Below, piece after piece: positions 28,133-38,963 of a stretch of 64,000 nucleotides of DNA. The DNA lies in assembly GCF_029910535.1 (NCBI RefSeq), contig NZ_CP069362.1, positions 1 through 64,000 of the forward strand. The letters run 5' to 3'. The notes beneath the pieces are model-generated. The model searched no databases, was not told the DNA's origin, and saw nothing but the letters and a program-made list of their open reading frames with translations. Within the stretch, counting starts at the first letter, position 1. Each line of letters starts with the position of its first letter. A program made the translations under genes and the position numbers. The DNA comes from Marinitoga aeolica. GTDB taxonomy: Bacteria > Thermotogota > Thermotogae > Petrotogales > Petrotogaceae.

Positions 28133-29248
28133 TTAAAATTCCTCTATAATTTTATTTGCAAATTCAATTGCAGATAAAGATTTTGATGAATCTGAGGAAA
28201 TATCAGGAGTAGAATAACCATTTTTTATAGTAGTTTCAATAGATTTTTTTATCAATTCAGCAGCTTCGGTATAACCAATGTATTCTAGCATCATTACTCC
28301 TGATAAAATAAGTGAGGTTGGATTAGCCATTTCAGGATTTTTTATTCCAGGTGCTGTCCCGTGTGTTGGTTCAAATAAAGCTATTTCATCTCCAATATTA
28401 GCGCCTGGAACTATACCTATTCCGCCAATTTGAGCCGCTGCCGCGTCCGACAAATAATCACCGTTCAAATTTGGAGTTATTAAAATATCAAAATTTGATG
28501 GATTTAATAATAATTGCTGAAACATGTTATCAGCTATAATATCATTTACCATAATATTTTTATTTTCTAATTGTTCTTTGAATTCATCAACTACTTCATA
28601 ACACCATTTTCTAAAATTACCTTCGGTGTATTTCATTATATTCCCTTTATGAACTATTGTTATTTTTTTTCTATTATTTTCTAATGCATATTTTATTGTT
28701 TTTCTCATAAGCCTCTTTGTTTTAAACTCGCTTATAGGTTTTATACCAATTGAAGCTTTACTTAAATTTGTTCCAAATTTTTCATTTAATATTTTTATTA
28801 ATTCATTTGATTCTTTAGAGTCCTCTTCCCATTCAATACCAGCATACACATCTTCTGTATTTTCACGAAAAATAATAATATCAACATTTTCTGGATTTTT
28901 TACTGGAGCTTTAATTCCAGGTATATATTTAACAGGTCTTATACAAGCATATAAATCTAACTTTTGCCTCATTGCTACATTCAAACTTCTATAACCACTA
29001 CCTATAGGTGTTTCAAGTGGACCTTTTATTCCTATTTTATATTCCTTTAATAAATCTAACGTTTCTTTTGGTAAAAGAGTTCCAAACTTTTTAAGAGCTT
29101 TTTTACCTGCATATGTTTCCTTCCAAATAATTTTTTTCTTTCCAGAATATATATAATCAATAGCTGCGTTCCAGACTTTCATAGCAGCTTTCATAATGTA
29201 TGGACCAATCCCATCACCTTCGATATATAAAATTGTTATTTCATCCAT
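28133..29248 (-). CDS. icd: Isocitrate dehydrogenase
   Basis: Oxidative decarboxylation of isocitrate to 2-oxoglutarate. 371 residues, E. coli Icd-like. The substrate region has IGSGYRSLNVAMRQ and RENTEDVYAGIEW. The cofactor loop reads HGTAPGIKNPEMANP; E. coli has Lys-Tyr after HGTAP (NADP-specific), whereas Gly-Ile here resembles NAD-using enzymes. ATG 29248 has GGCGGTGA ahead; the ATGA-overlap ATG at 29269 has none. Last gene of the operon; it supplies 2-oxoglutarate for glutamate. Confidence 0.93.
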   Translation of the reverse strand: MDEITILYIEGDGIGPYIMKAAMKVWNAAIDYIYSGKKKIIWKETYAGKKALKKFGTLLPKETLDLLKEYKIGIKGPLETPIGSGYRSLNVAMRQKLDLYACIRPVKYIPGIKAPVKNPENVDIIIFRENTEDVYAGIEWEEDSKESNELIKILNEKFGTNLSKASIGIKPISEFKTKRLMRKTIKYALENNRKKITIVHKGNIMKYTEGNFRKWCYEVVDEFKEQLENKNIMVNDIIADNMFQQLLLNPSNFDILITPNLNGDYLSDAAAAQIGGIGIVPGANIGDEIALFEPTHGTAPGIKNPEMANPTSLILSGVMMLEYIGYTEAAELIKKSIETTIKNGYSTPDISSDSSKSLSAIEFANKIIEEF

Positions 29249-29265
29249 TTTTTCACCGCCTATTT

Positions 29266-30315
29266 TCATAATATTACAAGATTATCAGCATGAATAAATT
29301 CTTCATAATCATAATTACCTAATTTTTGAATTTCTTCACTTTTTTTACCCAATATATTTTTACTTTCCAAATATGAATAATTAGAAATACCTTTTGCTAT
29401 TATTTTATTTTCATAATATATATTTACAGCATCACCTTTTAAAAATTTCCCTTCTACCTTTTCAATTCCTATTGATAATAAACTTTTTCTCTTTAAAATT
29501 GCTTCTTTAGCACCTTTATTTATATATATTTTCCCTTTACTATGAGACAAATAAGCAATCCAAGCTTTTTTATTTTTCATTTTTTTATTTGGCAAGAATA
29601 TCGTTCCAGGATTTTCACCATATATAAATTTTTCTATATTTCCTAAATTCTTACCATTACATATACATGTTTTTACTCCAGAATTTGATGCCATTTTTCC
29701 TGCTTCTATTTTGGAATTAATTCCACCTGTTCCAAACGACGTTTTTTTTATTTTTAATAATTCTTCTTTCTCATTGTAATTTTTTATAATATTTCCATTT
29801 TTATCATAAATCCCATCAACTGAAGTCAATATTACTAATCCATCCGCACCCCAACCAATAGCAAAATAAGCAGATAACATATCATTATCACCAAATTTGA
29901 TTTCTTCTACAGATATTGTGTCATTTTCATTTATTATTGGAATTATATTAAATTGGTTTAGCCCTATTAATGTATTTTTTAAATTTAAAAATCGATCTCT
30001 ATATGAGAAATCATCTTTTGTTAATAAAATTTGGGCTATTTTTTTATTATAAAAGTCAAAAGCTTGCTCATATATTTTCATTAACTGTACCTGCCCAATT
30101 GCGCACAATGCTTGTTTTTGAGCTAAACTTTTTATAGGATTCAAATTCAAATATTTTAATCCTGCAGCATTTGCACCAGAAGAAACAATAACGACTTTTT
30201 TGTTATTATCCATTAATTTAGACACAATAGAACTCAATTTTATTATGAATTTTTTATTTATTTCCTTCTCTTTAACAAGTAAATTACTTCCTATTTTAAT
30301 TACTATTTTTTCCAT
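29266..30315 (-). CDS. proB: Glutamate 5-kinase
   Basis: First proline-specific step: ATP-dependent phosphorylation of glutamate. 349 residues with an amino-acid-kinase domain (about 1-245: VIKIGSNLLV, VSSGANAAG, NENDTIS, FGTGGINSKI) and a C-terminal PUA-like domain (about 268-345). The full-length form is usually feedback-inhibited by proline. It sits 1 nt after proA. Confidence 0.94.
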   Translation of the reverse strand: MEKIVIKIGSNLLVKEKEINKKFIIKLSSIVSKLMDNNKKVVIVSSGANAAGLKYLNLNPIKSLAQKQALCAIGQVQLMKIYEQAFDFYNKKIAQILLTKDDFSYRDRFLNLKNTLIGLNQFNIIPIINENDTISVEEIKFGDNDMLSAYFAIGWGADGLVILTSVDGIYDKNGNIIKNYNEKEELLKIKKTSFGTGGINSKIEAGKMASNSGVKTCICNGKNLGNIEKFIYGENPGTIFLPNKKMKNKKAWIAYLSHSKGKIYINKGAKEAILKRKSLLSIGIEKVEGKFLKGDAVNIYYENKIIAKGISNYSYLESKNILGKKSEEIQKLGNYDYEEFIHADNLVIL

Positions 30316-30316
30316 T

Positions 30317-31561
30317 TTAGTCCCTCACATTATAATTGCCTTGAATTATATATTTATATGTAGTTAATTCTTTTAAACCAACTGGTCCTCGAGCATGCAT
30401 TTTTTGAGTACTTATACCCATTTCTGCTCCCATTCCAAATTCTCCACCATCTGTAAATCTTGTTGATGCATTAATATATACTGCTGCAGAATCTATTTCA
30501 TTAACAAACTTCATTGCATTTAAATAATTTTCTGTTAATATGGACTCAGAATGACCTGTTGAATATTTTTTTATATGATTAATGGCCTCATTTAAATCTT
30601 CAACAATTTTTATTGAAAGAATTAAATCAAGATACTCCGTAGCCCAATCTTCTTCTGTAGCTTTTTTTACTTTTATGATACTTATGGTTTTTTCACAACC
30701 ACGAATTTCTACAGATTTGCTTTCAAGTTGTTCTTTTAATGCTGGTAATATTTTTTCTGCAATATTTTTATGAATTAATACAGTCTCAACTGTATTACAT
30801 GTGCCTGGTCTTTGTGTTTTTGCATTATCTATTATGTCAATTGATTTTTCGATATTTGCTGATTCATCTACAAATATATGACATATTCCAACACCTGTTT
30901 CTAAAACAGGAACGGTAGAATTTTTTACTACAAAATCTATTAATCCTTTACCTCCTCTAGGGATTATTAAATCAATATATTCATTTAATTTAAGCATTTC
31001 ATTTACTAATTCTCTATTTGTGTTTTCTATTAATTCGATAGAATTTATAGGTATTTCAGAATTTCCCAACCCATCTTTTATAGCTTTTACAATAGCTTTA
31101 TTAGAGTTTATTGCATCTGAACCTCCTCTTAATAATACTGAATTTCCGGATTTTAAGGCTAATATTGTAGCTTCTAAAGTAACATTAGGTCTAGATTCAT
31201 ATATTATACCTATTACACCTAAAGGAACTCTTACTTTACTTATTCTCAAACCATCTTCTCTTAAAAATGAATCGAACATTTCACCCACTGGATCTTTTAA
31301 ATTTACAACCGTTTTGCAAGCTTCTATCATCCCTTTAATTCTTTTCTCATTTAAAGCTAATCTATCTATTAATGATTTTTTTATTCCTTTTTTTTCTGCT
31401 ATTTCTACATCTTTTTTATTTTCTGTTAATATATATTCTTTATTTTTTTCTATTGATTTAGCTATTTCTAATATGGCTTTATTTTTTTGTTTTGCATTTA
31501 ACGTTTTTAAAATATTAGAACTTTCTTTCAAATTTTTCGCTTTTATTATTAATTCACTCAT
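30317..31561 (-). CDS. proA: Glutamate-5-semialdehyde dehydrogenase
   Basis: Reduces glutamyl-5-phosphate with NADPH. 414 residues with aldehyde-dehydrogenase-fold motifs GVIGIIYESRPNVT, LRGGSDA, IPRGGKGLI and the catalytic cysteine in QRPGTCNTVET. C-terminal GEFGMGAEMGISTQKMHARGP (positions about 373-393) is typical. ATG 31561 follows GAGGTGGT. Confidence 0.95.
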   Translation of the reverse strand: MSELIIKAKNLKESSNILKTLNAKQKNKAILEIAKSIEKNKEYILTENKKDVEIAEKKGIKKSLIDRLALNEKRIKGMIEACKTVVNLKDPVGEMFDSFLREDGLRISKVRVPLGVIGIIYESRPNVTLEATILALKSGNSVLLRGGSDAINSNKAIVKAIKDGLGNSEIPINSIELIENTNRELVNEMLKLNEYIDLIIPRGGKGLIDFVVKNSTVPVLETGVGICHIFVDESANIEKSIDIIDNAKTQRPGTCNTVETVLIHKNIAEKILPALKEQLESKSVEIRGCEKTISIIKVKKATEEDWATEYLDLILSIKIVEDLNEAINHIKKYSTGHSESILTENYLNAMKFVNEIDSAAVYINASTRFTDGGEFGMGAEMGISTQKMHARGPVGLKELTTYKYIIQGNYNVRD

Positions 31562-31571
31562 TTTTACCACC

Positions 31572-32351
31572 TCATAATTCTTTATTTTTTAAATATGATT
31601 CATATACTGCCTTCATAATTGCACCTTTAGTTCCTTTTTGTTCTAATTCATATAAACCCTTAATGGTTACTCCACCAGGAGAAGATACTCGGTATTTTAA
31701 CTCTGATAAATCTATTTCCTCTTTTTCTAAAAAACGTATTGATCCTTCAAATGTTTTTAAAACAATATCCTTAGCAGTATCTGCATGTAACCCTATATTT
31801 ATAGCCCCTTCTATAAAACTTTCGAGTATGAATGCTACAAATGCTGGTCCGCTGCTGTTCAATATTGTAAACGCATCAAATTTTTCTTCTTCTAATTCCA
31901 ATACTTTCCCAAGGGGTTTTAATAATTCTATGATTTCTTTTTTTTCATCTCTTACAATAGTTTCATGAAAAGCTATTGCTGTGACTCCTTTCCCTATTTT
32001 AGAAATTACTGTTGGCATTATTCTAACTACATTATTTTTTTTTGATTTTTCTGATATTTCATTTATTTCTTTTCCTGCTGCGGTACTAATAATATAATTC
32101 CCGTCTTCTTCTAATTCTGATATTTCTTTAAATACTTCATCAATATGTTGAGGTTTTACAGATACAAATACATACTTTGAATTTTTATATACATCTTTTA
32201 TTGATTTGCATATTTTTATATTTCCTATTTTTTCATATTTTTTTAATTTTGATCTAGTTCTATTTATTATATGAAAAGTATGTTCTTTATTTTGTAAAGT
32301 TTCTAACAACATACTACCAATATTTCCTATTCCTATAATTCCAATATTCAT
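31572..32351 (-). CDS. proC: Pyrroline-5-carboxylate reductase
   Basis: Last step of proline synthesis. 259 residues with a Rossmann NAD(P) motif GIIGIGNIGSML, the VSVKPQHIDEV segment, RIMPT and the C-terminal SSPGGVTIKGLYELEQKG signature. ATG 32351 lies 4 nt after the leuD-like stop and has a GGAGTGTGAG site inside that gene's end. Confidence 0.95.
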   Translation of the reverse strand: MNIGIIGIGNIGSMLLETLQNKEHTFHIINRTRSKLKKYEKIGNIKICKSIKDVYKNSKYVFVSVKPQHIDEVFKEISELEEDGNYIISTAAGKEINEISEKSKKNNVVRIMPTVISKIGKGVTAIAFHETIVRDEKKEIIELLKPLGKVLELEEEKFDAFTILNSSGPAFVAFILESFIEGAINIGLHADTAKDIVLKTFEGSIRFLEKEEIDLSELKYRVSSPGGVTIKGLYELEQKGTKGAIMKAVYESYLKNKEL

Positions 32352-32355
32352 GTTC

Positions 32356-32856
32356 TCACACTCCATAATTTCCATATTTTTTTATATATTCATCTATGCC
32401 ACCAATTTCAAGTATTTTATTTATGAATTTTGGAAAAGGTATGAATTTATATTCTTTGTTTTGAGTTAGATTATTTATTATTCCTTTTTCTGTATCAACT
32501 TTTAATATATCGCCTTCATTAATTTCATCAACTTCTTTTAATTCAATTACAGGCAATCCAATATTAATAGAATTTCGATAAAAAATTCTTGCAAATGATT
32601 TTGCGATAACACATGAAACACCGGAAACTTTTATTATTCTTGGAGCATGTTCTCTTGAGGAGCCTAACCCAAAGTTTTTCCCACCTACTATAATGTCACC
32701 AGAATTAACTTTTTTAGCAAAATCTTCTCTTGCATCTTCTAATACGTGTTTAGCTAACTCTTTAAGATTTGAACGCAAATGAAAATATCTTCCAGGTGCT
32801 ATATGATCAGTTGAAATATTATCTCCAAATTTCCATACATTTCCTTGTAATATCAT
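32356..32856 (-). CDS. Aconitase/isopropylmalate-dehydratase-type small subunit
   Basis: Swivel-domain subunit of a two-subunit [4Fe-4S] hydro-lyase. 166 residues with [30 protein letters not shown] and [18 protein letters not shown]. The loop that sets substrate choice in LeuD/HacB reads [11 protein letters not shown], unlike the short 'YLRM' or 'YLRT' types I know for isopropylmalate or homoaconitate. With citrate synthase and isocitrate dehydrogenase in the same operon, aconitase activity is the best inference. Overlaps the large subunit by 4 nt. Confidence 0.85.
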
Positions 32857-34112
32857 TCTAATACCTCCCTTGGATCTGTTATATAACCTGTTATTGCACT
32901 TGCTGCAGCAACTGCAGGAGAAGATAAATATATTTCTGAGTTTGGATTTCCAGCTCTTCCGTGAAAGTTTCTATTTTGTGTAGACAACACTTTTTCACCA
33001 TCTGCAGGTACTCCAGCATGTACTCCAACACAAGGGCCGCATCCAGGTGGTAGGATGGTGGCTCCTGCTTTAATAAACGTATTAATTAATCCCTCTTTTA
33101 AAGCTTGGAGATATACATCTTTTGAAGCTGGTGCAATAATTAACCTTATATCATCTGATTTTTTTCTGTTTTTTAAAATATTGGCGACAATTCTCAAATC
33201 TTCAATTCTTCCATTTGTACATGTCCCAATGTAAACTTGGTCAATTTTTACACCTACAGCATCTTTTATATTTCGTGTGTTATCTACTGTATGTGGAAAT
33301 GAAACCTGAGGTTCTATTTCGGATAAATTTATTTCAATTGTTTTTTCATATTTTGCATCCGGATCTGCGGTTATTTCTTTATAATCTTTTTCTCTGCCTT
33401 GTGATTTTAAATATTCTTTTGTTATTTCATCTGTTGGGAATATACCCACTTTTGCTCCAGCTTCCACAGCCATATTTGAAATTGTCAATCTGGATTCCAT
33501 TGAAAGATTTTTAATTCCATCACCATCAAATTCTAAAGCTTTATATGTTGCACCATCAGCACCAATCTTCCCTATAAAATATAAGATAATATCTTTTGCA
33601 TAAACACCTTTAGACAATTTTCCTTTTAAAATTATTTTGAATGTTTCAGGAACTTTTAACCAGACTTTTCCTAAACCATATGCAAGGGCAATATCTGTTG
33701 ATCCCATACCAGTTGCAAAAGCTCCTAAAGCTCCTGCTGTACATGAATGTGAATCAGCTCCTACAATAACATCTCCTGGTTTTGCATATTTTTCAGCAAC
33801 AATTTGATGTGATATACCTTCACCTATATCATAAAGGCCTGCAGAAGACTTTTTACAAAATTGTCTGAGTTTTTTTTGTGTATTGGATAATTCTTTTCTA
33901 GGACTTGGAGAAGCATGATCTATAAAAACTAAAGATTTACTTTTCACATCATCAAAATTTAAATAATTAAATTGATCAACTGTTAGTGGTCCTGTTCCAT
34001 CTTGAACAAATGCTAAATCAATATCTGAAATGATTATTTCTCCTGCTTTAACTTCTTTTTTTGCATGTTCACTTAATATTTTTTCTGCTATTGTTTTTCC
34101 CACTTTATTCAA
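32853..34112 (-). CDS. Aconitase/isopropylmalate-dehydratase-type large subunit
   Basis: Catalytic subunit carrying the [4Fe-4S] cluster. 419 residues, LeuC/HacA length, much shorter than classical AcnA/AcnB. Cluster cysteines are in GADSHSCTAGALGA (about 120-133), YIGTCTNGRIEDL and PPGCGPCVGVHAG. The operon contains no leuA or leuB. It sits between gltA and proCAB-icd, so citrate to isocitrate is the expected reaction. A purely leucine role cannot be excluded by sequence. Confidence 0.88.
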   Translation of the reverse strand: MNKVGKTIAEKILSEHAKKEVKAGEIIISDIDLAFVQDGTGPLTVDQFNYLNFDDVKSKSLVFIDHASPSPRKELSNTQKKLRQFCKKSSAGLYDIGEGISHQIVAEKYAKPGDVIVGADSHSCTAGALGAFATGMGSTDIALAYGLGKVWLKVPETFKIILKGKLSKGVYAKDIILYFIGKIGADGATYKALEFDGDGIKNLSMESRLTISNMAVEAGAKVGIFPTDEITKEYLKSQGREKDYKEITADPDAKYEKTIEINLSEIEPQVSFPHTVDNTRNIKDAVGVKIDQVYIGTCTNGRIEDLRIVANILKNRKKSDDIRLIIAPASKDVYLQALKEGLINTFIKAGATILPPGCGPCVGVHAGVPADGEKVLSTQNRNFHGRAGNPNSEIYLSSPAVAAASAITGYITDPREVLE

Positions 34113-35223
34113 CTCCTTTCACTTCTTTATATTTTAGATTTTTTGGGCCATTGTATATAGCTTTTGGTCTAAATATTCTATTATTTTTGCAATATTCCAT
34201 AGCATGTGCTGTCCATCCCACAATTCTGGCCATTGCAAAAATAGGAGTAAAAAATTCTTTTGGAATACCAAAGTAGTTATAAAGAATTCCAGAATAAAAA
34301 TCTACATTTGGATAAATCTTTTTATCTTTAAATTTGTTTACTACTATTTCCTCTACTTTTAAGGCTATTTCAAAATACTTTATGTTATTGTTTATAAAGA
34401 TTTCTTTTATCCAATTTTTTAAAATTTTTGCGCGAGGATCGTATGTTTTATATATTCTATGGCCAAATCCCATTATTTTTTCTTTTTTTTCAATTAGATT
34501 GTTTATATAAAACTCAACATTTTCTATACTACCAATTTCATCGAACATTTTTAAAACTTTTTCATTCGCACCACCATGTAAAGGTCCTTTTAATGTTCCA
34601 ATAGCAGTTGTTATAATAGAATAAATATCTGATAATGTTGATGCTGTAACTGTAGATGCAAAGGTTGAAGCATTCATTCCTTGTTCTTCATGTAGAATTA
34701 AAGCTTTATCAAATAAATTAAAATGTTCTGGAATTTTACCGAACATCATATATAAGAAATTTTCTGAATGTTTTAAAGATTCTTTAGGTTTAATTAAAGG
34801 TAAATCGTTTCTTATTCTATACCAGTACGCAATTATAGTTGGTATCTTTGCCGTTAAGTTAATAGCGTTTTCAAAAGTTGAATTTTCTTTTTTTGAATAC
34901 ATACCTAACATTGAAACAACACTTCTTAAAACTTCCATAGGATGAGAATTTTTAGGAAATAATTTCATCATTTCTATTATTTGGTTAGGTAATTCTCTTT
35001 TTTTAGATAGCATTGAAATTAAAAAATCCAATTCATTTTCATTAGGCAAAGAACCAAACCATATTAAATAAGCAGTTTCTTCAAAATTAGAATTTTGTAT
35101 CAAATCTTCAATTTCAAAACCTCTATAAACTAATTTACCCTTTTCTCCATCAACACAGGAGATTGAACTAATAGCTACTGCTACACCATCCAAACCATAT
35201 TTAACTTCAAATTCAATATCCAT
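34105..35223 (-). CDS. gltA: Citrate synthase
   Basis: Condenses acetyl-CoA and oxaloacetate. 372 residues, the short archaeal/Gram-positive type. Active-site segments: GPLHGGANEKVLKM (His), MGFGHRIYKTYDPRA (His, Arg) and NVDFYSGILYN (Asp). First gene of gltA-leuC-leuD-proC-proA-proB-icd. ATG 35223 is 7 nt after GGAGG; ATG 35226 is also possible. Expression is probably set by the leader attenuator immediately upstream. Overlaps leuC-like by 8 nt. Confidence 0.94.
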   Translation of the reverse strand: MDIEFEVKYGLDGVAVAISSISCVDGEKGKLVYRGFEIEDLIQNSNFEETAYLIWFGSLPNENELDFLISMLSKKRELPNQIIEMMKLFPKNSHPMEVLRSVVSMLGMYSKKENSTFENAINLTAKIPTIIAYWYRIRNDLPLIKPKESLKHSENFLYMMFGKIPEHFNLFDKALILHEEQGMNASTFASTVTASTLSDIYSIITTAIGTLKGPLHGGANEKVLKMFDEIGSIENVEFYINNLIEKKEKIMGFGHRIYKTYDPRAKILKNWIKEIFINNNIKYFEIALKVEEIVVNKFKDKKIYPNVDFYSGILYNYFGIPKEFFTPIFAMARIVGWTAHAMEYCKNNRIFRPKAIYNGPKNLKYKEVKGVE

Positions 35224-35298
35224 CATTTCACCTCCTTGAAAATAAAAAAGGCCACACTTTTTAAGTGTGGCCTTAGGATTACCTTAAGTAAAATATAG

Positions 35299-35400
35299 CT
35301 ATACACCGAACTTAAGGTGTTGTGAAGGCCACACCTTGGGTTCGGGTTGATTATTTAATGTATTTATTAAATTAAATAAAGAAAGGATAAATATTTTCAT
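35299..35400 (-). CDS. Leader peptide of the gltA-pro operon
   Basis: A 33-codon ORF starts at ATG 35398-35400, 8 nt after GGAGG (35409-35413), and ends at TAG. Residues 16-22 are NNQPEPK. The run Gln-Pro-Glu-Pro (35338-35349) uses CCC twice, a codon that looks rare in this AT-rich DNA and so would sharpen stalling. Product of the operon downstream is glutamate precursor and proline, matching the codons. Too short for routine gene calls. Confidence 0.82.
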   Translation of the reverse strand: MKIFILSLFNLINTLNNQPEPKVWPSQHLKFGV

Positions 35401-35415
35401 TACAATAACCTCCTA

Positions 35416-35436
35416 TATCTATAAAAATTATAGATA
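35416..35436 (-). repeat. Inverted repeat at the 5' end of the gltA leader
   Basis: Perfect 9-bp arms (TATCTATAA and TTATAGATA, 3-nt centre) lie between the predicted transcription start and the leader-peptide ribosome site. It could be a 5' mRNA-stabilising hairpin or an operator. Confidence 0.5.
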
Positions 35437-35447
35437 ACTTTTAATGA

Positions 35448-35476
35448 ATTCTAACATATATATTATTAAAAGTCAA
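35448..35476 (-). promoter_or_regulatory. Promoter of the gltA operon
   Basis: TTGACT (35471-35476), 17 nt, TAGAAT (35448-35453) on the minus strand. Confidence 0.82.
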
Positions 35477-35522
35477 GTGAATTTTTACAATTATATTTTA
35501 GTAACTGAATTTTAAATATATT

Positions 35523-36299
35523 TTAATTATTTCCCCAATTATAATTTAATATCCATTCTTGTTTTAATTCTTCTAATGTTCCATCTACTTTCAATGTCTC
35601 TATAACAGTGTTTAACCATAAAAGTAAATCTATATCTTTTTTGTTCACAGCTATACCGAGGTTTTCTTTTGTTAATAATTCATTAATCATTTTCATGGAA
35701 GGATATTTTTTTACTAAAGTACCAAAATATAAATCATCAAATACCATAGCATCAGCTTTTTTTATAATTACCTGATAAGCAGCAGCATCAACAGTTTCAA
35801 AAGTTAGAATTTTAGCTTTTGGAAACATTTTCCTTGCAACAATTTCCCCAGTTGAACCCAGTTGGACAGCAATTTTAACTTTAGACCCCATATTTTTAAT
35901 GTCTTTTATTGTTAAGTTGGAATATTTTTGTGAATTAAACATTAAAGCCTGTCCAGTTTGATAATAAGGTATTGTAAAATTAACTTTTATAGCTCTTTCA
36001 GGAGTTATAGTCATAGCAGCCAAAATAATATCAAACTTATTTGCCATTAAAGCAGGAATTATCCCATCCCAATTAGTTATAACAAATTTGACTTTTACAC
36101 CTAAAAAATCTGCTAAAATTTTCGCAAAAGCAATATCGTGTCCAATTCTTTTACCATTAATATCAATTCCATAGAATGGGGCATAAGCAGGATCCTGACC
36201 AACTAACAAAACACCACGTTTTTGAATTTCTTCGATTTTTCCACTAAATATGCTAATTGAAATAATAACTACCAAGATAAATAATGCTAATTTTTTCAT
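35523..36299 (-). CDS. Amino acid ABC transporter substrate-binding protein (second copy)
   Basis: 258 residues, signal peptide 1-19, family-3 solute-binding fold (start of mature protein KIEEIQKRGVLLVGQDPAYAPF; FVITNWDGIIPALMANKFD; AAMTITPERA). It is a close paralogue of the protein at 37943 (roughly two-thirds identical by eye) and lies after the ATPase gene, behind its own attenuator with three His codons. The leader points to histidine as ligand. Probably shares the permease/ATPase pair. Confidence 0.88.
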   Translation of the reverse strand: MKKLALFILVVIISISIFSGKIEEIQKRGVLLVGQDPAYAPFYGIDINGKRIGHDIAFAKILADFLGVKVKFVITNWDGIIPALMANKFDIILAAMTITPERAIKVNFTIPYYQTGQALMFNSQKYSNLTIKDIKNMGSKVKIAVQLGSTGEIVARKMFPKAKILTFETVDAAAYQVIIKKADAMVFDDLYFGTLVKKYPSMKMINELLTKENLGIAVNKKDIDLLLWLNTVIETLKVDGTLEELKQEWILNYNWGNN

Positions 36300-36340
36300 A
36301 ATATCTACCTCCTAATAAAGTTTTTTTAAATAAATAAAAA

Positions 36341-36420
36341 AGCCACACCAAATTATGGCGTGGCCTCTGATTTTCCTTGAGCAGCATCACAACTCAAGGT
36401 GTCAGCCTGAGGCCACACCT
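36341..36420 (-). repeat. 80-nt repeat of the attenuator core, copy 2
   Basis: Matches 38763-38842 in the same orientation with only two differences (at 36341 and 36359) over 80 nt. It covers all attenuator segments. Direct repeats 2.4 kb apart flank the ABC importer genes. Confidence 0.9.
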
Positions 36421-36483
36421 GAAATGATGATGTTTGAAGTTTTGATTTGATTTATAATTATAGGCAAAGAAAAGTTTTTCCAT
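36394..36483 (-). CDS. His leader peptide (second binding protein)
   Basis: A 29-codon ORF starts at ATG 36481-36483 with GGAGTGGT ahead and stops with TGA. Residues 19-21 are three consecutive His (36424-36432), followed by FRCGLRLTP. The last eight residues are the same as in the leader at 38816. The stop codon lies in segment B, so a ribosome that is not stalled would cover A and B and permit termination. Confidence 0.85.
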   Translation of the reverse strand: MEKLFFAYNYKSNQNFKHHHFRCGLRLTP

Positions 36484-36508
36484 ATTAACCACTCCTATAC
36501 TCTAATTT

Positions 36509-37204
36509 TTAAGCTATTTCGTATTTTAATTCTGTTTTGAAAAATGTATCGGGATCCATATTTTCTAATATTTTCCCATCTTTCATAAATATAATTCTAT
36601 CTCCAGCTTTTTTAGCAAAATCAACTTCATGTGTAACTACTAACATCGTTTTTCCGCTATTAGATAGTTCTACCATTGTTTCTTTTACTTCATATACTAA
36701 ACTAGGATCAAGTGATGAGGTTGGTTCATCAAATAATATTATTTCTGGGTCCATCGCTAAAGCTCTTGCTATACCTGCCCTTTGTTGTTGGCCGCCTGAT
36801 AATTGAGAAGGAAAATTATAAGCTTTATCTTTTAAATGAACTTTCTCTAAAACATTAAGAGCAATTTCATATGCTTCGTCTTTTTTCATCTTTTTAGTTC
36901 GTATTAATCCCAATGATATATTATCTATTATTTTTAAATGAGGAAATAAATTATGTTGTTGAAAAACAAAACCTATTTTTTGTACCAAGGTTTTTCTTGA
37001 ATAATCATAAATATTTTTTTCTTCTAAAGCAATTATTCCTTTTTGATATTCTTCTAAACCAGCTATACATCTTAATAATGTTGATTTTCCAGAACCTGAT
37101 GGGCCCATTATTACTAATACTTCTCCCTTTACAACTTTAAGATTTACACCCTTTAAAACCTCAAGGTTTCCAAAACTTTTCTCTAAATTTTTTATTTCAA
37201 TCAT
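36509..37204 (-). CDS. Polar amino acid ABC transporter ATPase
   Basis: 231 residues, GlnQ/HisP family. Walker A GPSGSGKST, signature [15 protein letters not shown], Walker B IILFDEPTSSLDP, H-loop VVTHEVDFA. Overlaps the permease stop by 4 nt. Substrate predicted as histidine from the leader peptides on both sides of the transporter genes. Confidence 0.93.
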   Translation of the reverse strand: MIEIKNLEKSFGNLEVLKGVNLKVVKGEVLVIMGPSGSGKSTLLRCIAGLEEYQKGIIALEEKNIYDYSRKTLVQKIGFVFQQHNLFPHLKIIDNISLGLIRTKKMKKDEAYEIALNVLEKVHLKDKAYNFPSQLSGGQQQRAGIARALAMDPEIILFDEPTSSLDPSLVYEVKETMVELSNSGKTMLVVTHEVDFAKKAGDRIIFMKDGKILENMDPDTFFKTELKYEIA

Positions 37205-37950
37205 ACTATTGCAAACCTCCTTTCAAAATATTTCCCTAATAATTGCAATAATGCAGTTATTGTAAAATAAAATACTGCTACTGTAATATATGACTCAAAT
37301 GATGCAAAGGAAGAGGTGGCGATTTGTCTTCCTACCATTGTCAATTCCTGTAATGCTATAACAGATGCTAGAGAACTATCTTTTACCAAGCTAATAAATT
37401 GTCCTGTTAATGCAGGTAACGTAGTTCTAAAAGCTTGAGGTAATAATATATCTATATATAGATAAAATGTATTTAATCCTATTGTTTTTGCTGCTTCAAC
37501 TTGACCTTTTGGTACAGCTTCAATACCACCTCGAATAATTTCAGACACATAAGCACCTTCAAATAAAGATAATGATACTATCGCACCAATCATTGCACTT
37601 ATTTCTATCATTGAACCTATACCATAATAAACAATCAATATAATAACTAATAAAGGTATATTTCTAAAAATTGTTGTATATGTATTTGCAAATTCTTTTA
37701 AAATTTCGTACTTAGATGTTTTCATAACCCCAAATATTATCCCTATAATCATTGCAAAAAATATTGAAAATACTGATATTTTTAAAGTCATATAAAAACC
37801 CTCTAAGTATAGATTCATATATTTAAAAGGAACCTTTTGCCAATTAAACGGATATGTTTTTGACATTTCAATATAGAAGACAGCTAGAATAATTATTAAT
37901 ACGGCATAAGCTATAAATTTTTGTATGTAATTTTTGTTCAACTTATTCAC
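37201..37950 (-). CDS. Polar amino acid ABC transporter permease
   Basis: 249 residues, HisM/GlnP family, about five or six membrane segments and the loop EIIRGGIEAVPKGQVEAAKTIGL contacting the ATPase. A single permease gene implies a homodimer. Overlaps the end of the first binding-protein gene by 8 nt. Confidence 0.92.
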   Translation of the reverse strand: MNKLNKNYIQKFIAYAVLIIILAVFYIEMSKTYPFNWQKVPFKYMNLYLEGFYMTLKISVFSIFFAMIIGIIFGVMKTSKYEILKEFANTYTTIFRNIPLLVIILIVYYGIGSMIEISAMIGAIVSLSLFEGAYVSEIIRGGIEAVPKGQVEAAKTIGLNTFYLYIDILLPQAFRTTLPALTGQFISLVKDSSLASVIALQELTMVGRQIATSSFASFESYITVAVFYFTITALLQLLGKYFERRFAIV

Positions 37951-38719
37951 CCCAATCGTAGTCTACCATCCATTTTTGTTTTAATTGATCTAATGTTCCA
38001 TCTGTTTTTTTACATTCTATAAATGTGTTTATCCATAATAATAAATCTAAATTTTCTTTTTTTACAGCTATACCTAATTTTTCTTTGTTCAATAATTTAC
38101 CAATAGTTTTTATTGATGCATATTTTTTTGAAATTGATCCATAATATAATTCATCAAATACTAATACATCCGCTTTTTTAGTTATTATTTGATATGCTGC
38201 AGCATCAACTGTTTCAAAAGTTAATATCTGTGCTTCCGGGAAAAACTTTCTTGCCGCAAATTCACCAGTTGTTCCTAATTGAACAGCTATTTTAGCTTTT
38301 TTACCCATTTTTTTAAGTTCATCTATAGTGATACCATTTGGATATTTTTGTGTATTATAAAATATAGTTTGTCCAGTTTCATAGTATGAAGTTGAAAAGT
38401 TAACTTTTATAGCTCTTTCAGGAGTTATTGTCATACCAGCTAATACAAAATCAAATTTATCGGCTAATAATGCTGGAATTATACCATCCCAATTTGTAAT
38501 AACAAATTTCAACTTAACGCCTAAAACTTCTGCCATCATTTTAGCCAAATCAACTTCATAACCTATTCTTTCACCTTTAGTATTTACACCATAAAATGGT
38601 GCATATGCTGGATCTTGACCAACTAATAATACTCCACGTTTTTGAATTTCTTCAATTTTACCGCCAAAAATAGTAATAATGGAAACGACCATAATCAATA
38701 CAACCAATAACTTTTTCAT
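37943..38719 (-). CDS. Amino acid ABC transporter substrate-binding protein (first copy)
   Basis: 258 residues, signal peptide 1-19, family-3 solute-binding protein (VLLVGQDPAYAPFYG, FVITNWDGIIPALLADKFD, AGMTITPERAIKVNF). ATG 38719 is preceded by GGAGGTAG. An in-frame upstream extension to 38812 runs through the attenuator terminator and is not real. First structural gene of the importer operon; the leader has Arg-His-His-Ser-Arg, consistent with histidine or basic amino acids. Confidence 0.92.
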   Translation of the reverse strand: MKKLLVVLIMVVSIITIFGGKIEEIQKRGVLLVGQDPAYAPFYGVNTKGERIGYEVDLAKMMAEVLGVKLKFVITNWDGIIPALLADKFDFVLAGMTITPERAIKVNFSTSYYETGQTIFYNTQKYPNGITIDELKKMGKKAKIAVQLGTTGEFAARKFFPEAQILTFETVDAAAYQIITKKADVLVFDELYYGSISKKYASIKTIGKLLNKEKLGIAVKKENLDLLLWINTFIECKKTDGTLDQLKQKWMVDYDWGE

Positions 38720-38762
38720 AATCTCTACCTCCTTATATAATTTTCTTTTAAATAATAAAAAA

Positions 38763-38842
38763 GGCCACACCAAATTATGGTGTGGCCTCTGATTTTCCTT
38801 GAGCAGCATCACAACTCAAGGTGTCAGCCTGAGGCCACACCT
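38763..38842 (-). repeat. 80-nt repeat of the attenuator core, copy 1
   Basis: 78 of 80 positions match 36341-36420. One difference changes a Watson-Crick pair in A:D to a G-U, so both copies keep the fold. The adjoining binding-protein genes have diverged far more. Confidence 0.9.
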
Positions 38843-38908
38843 TGAGTGATGTCTTAATATTATATTTGAGTTAATATTATTAATAATTAATAAATAATTC
38901 TTTTTCAT
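38816..38908 (-). CDS. His/Arg leader peptide of the ABC importer
   Basis: A 30-codon ORF starts at ATG 38906-38908, 7 nt after GGAGG, and stops with TGA. Residues 19-23 are RHHSR (His codons 38846-38851), followed by CGLRLTP as in the other His leader. The N-terminal half differs completely between the two leaders, so only the control codons and RNA-pairing part are conserved. Confidence 0.83.
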   Translation of the reverse strand: MKKNYLLIINNINSNIILRHHSRCGLRLTP

Positions 38909-38934
38909 AATTTCTCCTCCGGAATTTTTTTCTT

Positions 38935-38963
38935 ATTATAGCATAAATTTGTTCTCATGTCAA
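38935..38963 (-). promoter_or_regulatory. Consensus promoter of the ABC importer operon
   Basis: Perfect TTGACA (38958-38963), 17 nt, perfect TATAAT (38935-38940) on the minus strand. A strong constitutive promoter suits control by attenuation downstream. Confidence 0.92.

Follow-up and report, generated by a model that had tools for sequence, protein, structure and literature searches.

Predicted leader-peptide attenuators with alternative RNA pairings upstream of amino acid genes in Marinitoga aeolica

Three short ORFs, each followed by the same five-segment RNA, are situated within a few kilobases of one another in the 64,000-nucleotide stretch of Marinitoga aeolica DNA analysed here (hereafter the window). 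The question raised by this locus is whether these elements control the genes that follow them and, if so, by what mechanism. In the Yanofsky-type trp and his attenuators of the Enterobacteria, a leader ORF with tandem control codons is combined with an intrinsic terminator and a mutually exclusive antiterminator. T-box riboswitches, which sense tRNA charging upstream of amino acid genes, bind the tRNA directly and need no leader ORF. The original prediction described the three elements as a transferable cassette, re-tuned by changes of control codons, and as a candidate for an undescribed system. The data presented below lead us to predict, with high confidence, that all three elements work by ribosome-mediated attenuation of transcription.

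All features of this locus are on the minus strand. As predicted, leader ORFs were found upstream of gltA (35299–35400; 33 aa, MKIFILSLFNLINTLNNQPEPKVWPSQHLKFGV) and of two binding-protein genes, SBP1 (36394–36483; 29 aa, MEKLFFAYNYKSNQNFKHHHFRCGLRLTP, with ATG as the start codon) and SBP2 (38816–38908; 30 aa, MKKNYLLIINNINSNIILRHHSRCGLRLTP), and a Shine–Dalgarno-like sequence precedes each of them. The gltA and SBP2 leader ORFs are retained in all seven Marinitoga genomes. The five predicted segments were likewise present after each leader, namely A (GGTGTGGCC), B (ACACCTT), C (AAGG), D (GGCCACRC) and E (GTGTGGC), and at all three loci D:E is an intrinsic terminator ahead of the first gene. 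gltA (34105–35226; citrate synthase) is the first gene of an operon (28133–35226) with the order gltA–aconitase (two subunits)–proC–proA–proB–icd, in which the assignments from gltA to proB are those of NCBIfam and the last gene (28133–29269) appears from its sequence to be isocitrate dehydrogenase-like. The operon as a whole corresponds to a pathway that starts at citrate and leads towards glutamate and proline. NCBIfam assigns SBP1 (35523–36299) to the amino acid binding proteins of the Lys/Arg/Orn-His family, and SBP2, with the permease and ATPase genes (together 36509–38725), to a polar amino acid ABC transporter. Among the nearest solved relatives are binding proteins for several amino acids.

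The gltA leader transcript is preceded by a promoter-like sequence, TTGACT-17-TAGAAT (35448–35476), with 10 of 12 matches and a TG before the second hexamer. Its probable control codons, CAA CCC GAA CCC (Q P E P; 35338–35349), are followed by A (35325–35335; GGTGTGGCCTT), for which the partner is B or D; by B (35306–35320; ACACCTTAAGTTCGG), for which the partner is X+A (CCGAACCCAAGGTGT) or C, X being a segment upstream of A or overlapping it; and by C (35282–35289; ACTTAAGG), the helix B:C being 99% paired. The terminator hairpin D:E (35248–35274; 99% paired in 17 sequences) is followed by a U run. The SBP2 leader has a sigma-70-type promoter sequence with 12 of 12 matches, TTGACA-17-TATAAT (38935–38963), control codons CAT CAC (HH; 38846–38851), A at 38831–38841, B at 38815–38824, C at 38797–38803 and D:E at 38760–38790. 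In the SBP1 leader, control codons CAT CAT CAT (HHH; 36424–36432) are followed by A (36409–36419), B (36393–36402, containing the leader stop TGA at 36394–36396), C (36375–36381) and D:E (36338–36368). In the SBP1 and SBP2 copies, A and B are supported by sequence and by helix pairing in the alignment, and C by helix pairing. No promoter of its own was seen for the SBP1 leader, which begins 25 nt past the stop of the ATPase gene, and it is therefore regarded as an internal attenuator within the transporter operon. Two predicted His attenuators accordingly stand in series on one transporter operon, the SBP1 leader being situated between the ATPase gene and SBP1 (36483–36509).

The module is present in all seven Marinitoga genomes, in 17 copies, and the alternative pairings originally proposed (A with B or D, B with C, D with E) were borne out by the aligned copies. 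Pairing was 98% for A:D plus B:C, where 3 pairs had changed on both sides, and 95% for A:B plus D:E, where 5 pairs had done so. Slid controls for both helix sets all gave far lower pairing than the real alignment. The 17 copies had been aligned to fit A:B plus D:E, and the count for A:D plus B:C is therefore less subject to bias. It is apparent that the Marinitoga His/Pro set has an antiterminator that overlaps the terminator and is supported by covariation. The reading frame through A is A-AGG-TGT in the His leaders and AAG-GTG-TGG in the Pro leaders, and the Pro leader of one genome (G042) reads A in a third frame. Since the frame differs while the bases of A are kept, A acts as RNA; the codons before A are kept as codons, and A itself is kept as RNA.

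The SBP2 leader reads R-H-H-S and the SBP1 leader H-H-H, and both are thus His leaders, whereas the gltA leader reads N-N-Q-P-E-P. The claim that the three leaders carry different control codons was therefore correct only in part (His, His and Pro/Gln/Glu), although the codons do vary in the larger family described below. HHH was found in all three SBP1 copies (from the three genomes in which an SBP1 copy was found), and HH in six of the seven SBP2-type copies from the seven Marinitoga genomes, with HR in the other. A role of the His codons as mere pairing partners was ruled out, CATCAT being kept while the opposite bases change. The His control codons of both leaders make His a candidate substrate of the transporter. 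QPEP is present in six of the seven Marinitoga gltA leaders and EPEQ in the seventh, and the third position of the second Pro codon varies (CCC/CCT/CCA) across the genus. In the gltA leader Asn is enriched as much as Pro, so that the statistics of codon use leave the control residue ambiguous and cannot by themselves identify Pro; it is the position of the leader before gltA–aconitase–proC–proA–proB–icd that makes Pro the likely sensing residue, a plausible assignment but a weaker one than those of the other leaders. The stretch coding NTLNNQPEP (35338–35360, minus strand) is nearly invariant across the genus, silent positions included.

The genome was also scanned de novo for a terminator D:E with an upstream A able to pair with D, a short ORF led by a ribosome binding site around A, and a downstream gene; the module sequence was not used. 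Two whole-genome scans yielded four further attenuators of unrelated sequence with matching codons: Trp before trpB2, Tyr before aroF, Asn before asnA and Met before metQ. When the scan was relaxed, 13 matches were obtained, and the top six by A:D all precede amino acid genes to which their codons correspond, clearly or plausibly, i.e. SBP2, trpB2 (NWWW), asnA (NNFNNNNIN), SBP1, gltA and aroF (YCYYY). A seventh match, at 1533010, had a lower score and no amino acid gene match. An A:D of at least 13 beside a leader ORF was observed 7 times, as compared with 0.4 expected when upstream regions were swapped between terminators, a count in which no downstream gene was required.

The Trp element is in the window, on the minus strand, with its leader ORF at 2780–2893 (MEKITKNGKNLFNSININSLNWWWTPGGCLPFCHALR, containing WWW), A at 2803–2817 (CCGGTGGGTGTCTAC), D and E (the terminator) at 2723–2758 and the TrpB-like tryptophan synthase beta gene trpB2 (NCBIfam) at 1413–2687. 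The Tyr leader (YCYYY; L147, whole-genome positions 1986611–1986788, plus strand) precedes aroF–aroA–tyrA-like–aminotransferase, for which the NCBIfam assignments are DAHP synthase, aroA, a prephenate dehydrogenase-like protein and an aminotransferase. It has the pairings X:B, B:C, A:D and D:E in a sequence unrelated to the His/Pro module. The Asn leader (NNFNNNNIN; whole-genome position 1405079, minus strand) precedes asparagine synthetase A (asnA, NCBIfam). The Met leader (VHMMMW; 693235–693400 in the whole genome, minus strand), found in a codon-run scan, precedes metQ and methionine transporter-like genes, and its Met run comprises 3, 3, 4 and 4 codons in four species (L253–L256). We read the set of this genome as His (the two transporter leaders), Pro or Gln/Pro/Glu (gltA–pro), Trp (trpB2), Tyr (aroF operon), Asn (asnA) and Met (metQ). 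Agreement of control codons with operon product is clear for Trp, Tyr, Asn and Met, the His codons are clear, and Pro for gltA is plausible only. When control codons were compared with downstream gene function across the wider set, the residue enriched beside A, when called blind, agreed with the product of the downstream gene for 44 of 50 leaders.

We infer promoter use, ribosome stalling, antitermination and the direction of the response in the following scheme. RNA polymerase would start upstream, and a ribosome would translate the leader of approximately 25–40 codons, in which the control codons stand just before A. With ample charged tRNA, the ribosome would reach the leader stop. In the His, Pro, Tyr and Met leaders, the hairpin X:B would then re-form behind the finished ribosome and trap A, D:E would form and transcription would end; in the Asn leaders, the ribosome at the stop would cover A, leaving D to pair with E, with the same outcome. 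If the cognate tRNA were uncharged, the ribosome would stall on the control codons and cover X, B would pair with C and the 3′ part of A with D, the terminator would be blocked and the operon would be transcribed.

Folding is in part consistent with this scheme. Without a ribosome and before D is made, X:B forms and holds A in its stem or loop, the energies of the whole folds being roughly −10 to −15 kcal/mol at 60 °C. Under constrained folding with a ribosome at the first control codon, X is covered and B:C forms; after D has been transcribed, the A:D helix encloses B:C. This nested scheme accommodates the His, Pro, Tyr and Met leaders, those of Tyr and Met with unrelated sequences, and the Trp leader has the classical three-hairpin form (X:A, A:D, D:E). 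In the Asn leaders the stop is in or near A, so a finishing ribosome covers A, and folding gives a high A:D when stalled and a mostly low one with the ribosome at the stop. For the Tyr leader of this genome, the fold alone discriminates the stalled from the finished state. For His, Pro and Met, A:D is favoured at equilibrium before E is made even without a ribosome, and static folding was rejected as proof of the switch in these leaders. Their OFF state therefore depends on kinetics; X:B or the ribosome would delay A:D until E is made.

It might be supposed that the hairpins merely terminate transcription in the ordinary way, or belong to a palindromic repeat element, and that the short ORFs before them are there by accident. 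Two covariance models built for the module (R1 and R2) do also score ordinary terminators and opposite strands, at 20–32 bits. The leaders, however, have ribosome binding sites and codons conserved in seven of seven genomes, compensatory changes occur in helices outside the terminator, and control residues match gene products at unrelated loci, all of which makes this explanation highly improbable. A simpler switch, in which only A, D and E have a role, with A blocked by a ribosome at the stop and no function for B and C, would work on paper for the Asn leaders, with their stop in or close after A. The His, Pro, Tyr and Met leaders, in contrast, leave A unmasked or partly masked from the stop, and the stop of the gltA leader is too far downstream for masking of A. 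As B:C is 99% paired with compensatory change, and recurs in the Tyr and Met leaders with unrelated sequence, this simpler switch is considered improbable.

A further alternative concerns the gltA leader, which may be something other than a simple counter of Pro codons: NTLNNQPEP could stall the ribosome via the nascent peptide or a Pro motif and sense, for example, EF-P activity or Gln/Glu status. Its ACATTAAATAATCAACCCGAAC is almost invariant across the genus even at silent sites, while the ORF start varies; it has just two Pro codons, and the highest enrichment is not that of Pro. The available text of PMC3641672 provides a precedent in Salmonella mgtCBR, where a Pro-codon leader serves a non-proline operon. 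This alternative is nevertheless rather unlikely, given that the second Pro codon varies at its third position and is replaced by Gln in one species, that codon counting suits an operon for the synthesis of Glu and Pro, and that the bases upstream in the His leaders show similar conservation.

The original prediction of a transferable cassette rested on a core sequence conserved at loci of different amino acids. Such a core does exist. The gltA and SBP2 leaders have the 13-nt sequence CAAGGTGTGGCCT in common, and no pair of unrelated attenuators shares more than 8 nt; among 20,000 random genome segments one matched as well, its longest match being 48 nt, presumably a sister copy. With a model from the His copies alone, all seven gltA copies rank next in the phylum (32–45 bits). 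An ordinary terminator scores up to 31 bits with that model, and the shared A-B-C part is therefore the better evidence of kinship. Common sequence at loci of different amino acids was found only at the Marinitoga tandem His/Pro locus and in a His/branched-chain pair of family f7, and none was found for the Trp, Tyr, Asn and Met attenuators. Model R1 gave just three strong matches in the whole genome, namely the gltA, SBP1 and SBP2 leaders. The search of relatives that had been suggested recovered further copies throughout the genus, but outside it the matches of R1 and R2 were mostly ordinary terminators or opposite strands, so that the family cannot be delimited with a covariance model by itself. 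When 84,980 species, from which near genomes may be left out, were scanned with a pattern, only Marinitoga lauensis matched. Because the near-identical sequence does not extend beyond a single tandem locus in a single genus, there is no support for a freely transferable cassette; what recurs elsewhere is the topology. The confinement looks like local duplication with codon changes, and this is the likely origin of the tandem His/His/Pro set as judged from its sequence.

Loci were excised from 103 Thermotogota genomes for a survey. Runs of Asn codons before asnA were found in nearly all members of the family of M. aeolica (f1) and also in members of families f2, f4 and f7, and Tyr runs before aroF in families f1, f7 and f9. 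In a sister genus belonging to the same family, argJ is preceded by an Arg leader (NNRRRQCSR; L020, 1390–1573). The Pro leader before gltA was found in Marinitoga only in this survey, and it was looked for and not found at the gltA loci of families f2, f4, f10 and f11.

The elements share the logic of leader, terminator and antiterminator with the trp and his attenuators of the Enterobacteria, and the Trp leader has their 1:2, 2:3, 3:4 layout. Unlike that type, most leaders here are nested, with A between X and B (or overlapping X) and the antiterminator A:D around B:C, and the Asn leaders are without a clear segment 1. The mechanism is thus classical attenuation and "undescribed system" is too strong a term, although the variant and its specificities may be undescribed. 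An Rfam search gave chance matches only, with no T-box or other family. The leader-peptide attenuators of Actinobacteria and the Bacillus his leaders (PMC1262725, PMC2965389) follow the same principle outside the Proteobacteria, in other phyla and with other specificities; for the Tyr, Arg and Met operons of Actinobacteria, no conserved RNA structures were reported (PMC1262725). The tandem attenuators of Salmonella mgtCBR likewise have short leader ORFs with Pro codons involved but, according to the available text of PMC3641672, govern a Mg2+ transporter/virulence operon and not proline synthesis. A word search of the literature, which can miss papers, revealed no leader-peptide attenuator in Thermotogota (Lopatovskaya et al. 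2010, cited in PMC4833913, may hold predictions) and none for Asn, Met, Tyr or Arg before cognate genes.

It is tentatively proposed, as a possibility somewhat short of probable, that the Thermotogota exert general control over amino acid genes by leader-peptide attenuation (His, Trp, Tyr, Asn, Met, Pro, Arg and perhaps branched-chain) on a nested X:B/B:C/A:D/D:E switch, new specificities arising by local duplication of the core and exchange of codons, as at the tandem His/His/Pro locus. If so, a deep-branching, mostly thermophilic phylum would regulate amino acid genes by ribosome stalling; Asn, Met, Tyr, Arg and Pro would be specificities for which no matching biosynthesis or transport leader attenuator was found in the literature searched; the tandem locus would be a natural record of a change in attenuator specificity; and control codons would provide independent predictions of transporter substrates.

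Two observations from the survey may be added. At a DAHP synthase gene of one genome (G052, locus L205), the leader has WW rather than Tyr codons, and that genome has a second DAHP synthase. In family f7, at a set of loci (L039, 1501–1606; L047, 4861–4966; and, on the reverse strand, L018, L021, L022, L025 and L048), one RNA core is found under His leaders, before a binding-protein gene, and under branched-chain leaders such as VVYIVLIL. The gene behind the VVYIVLIL leader is, by our own reading of its sequence, probably amidohydrolase-like.
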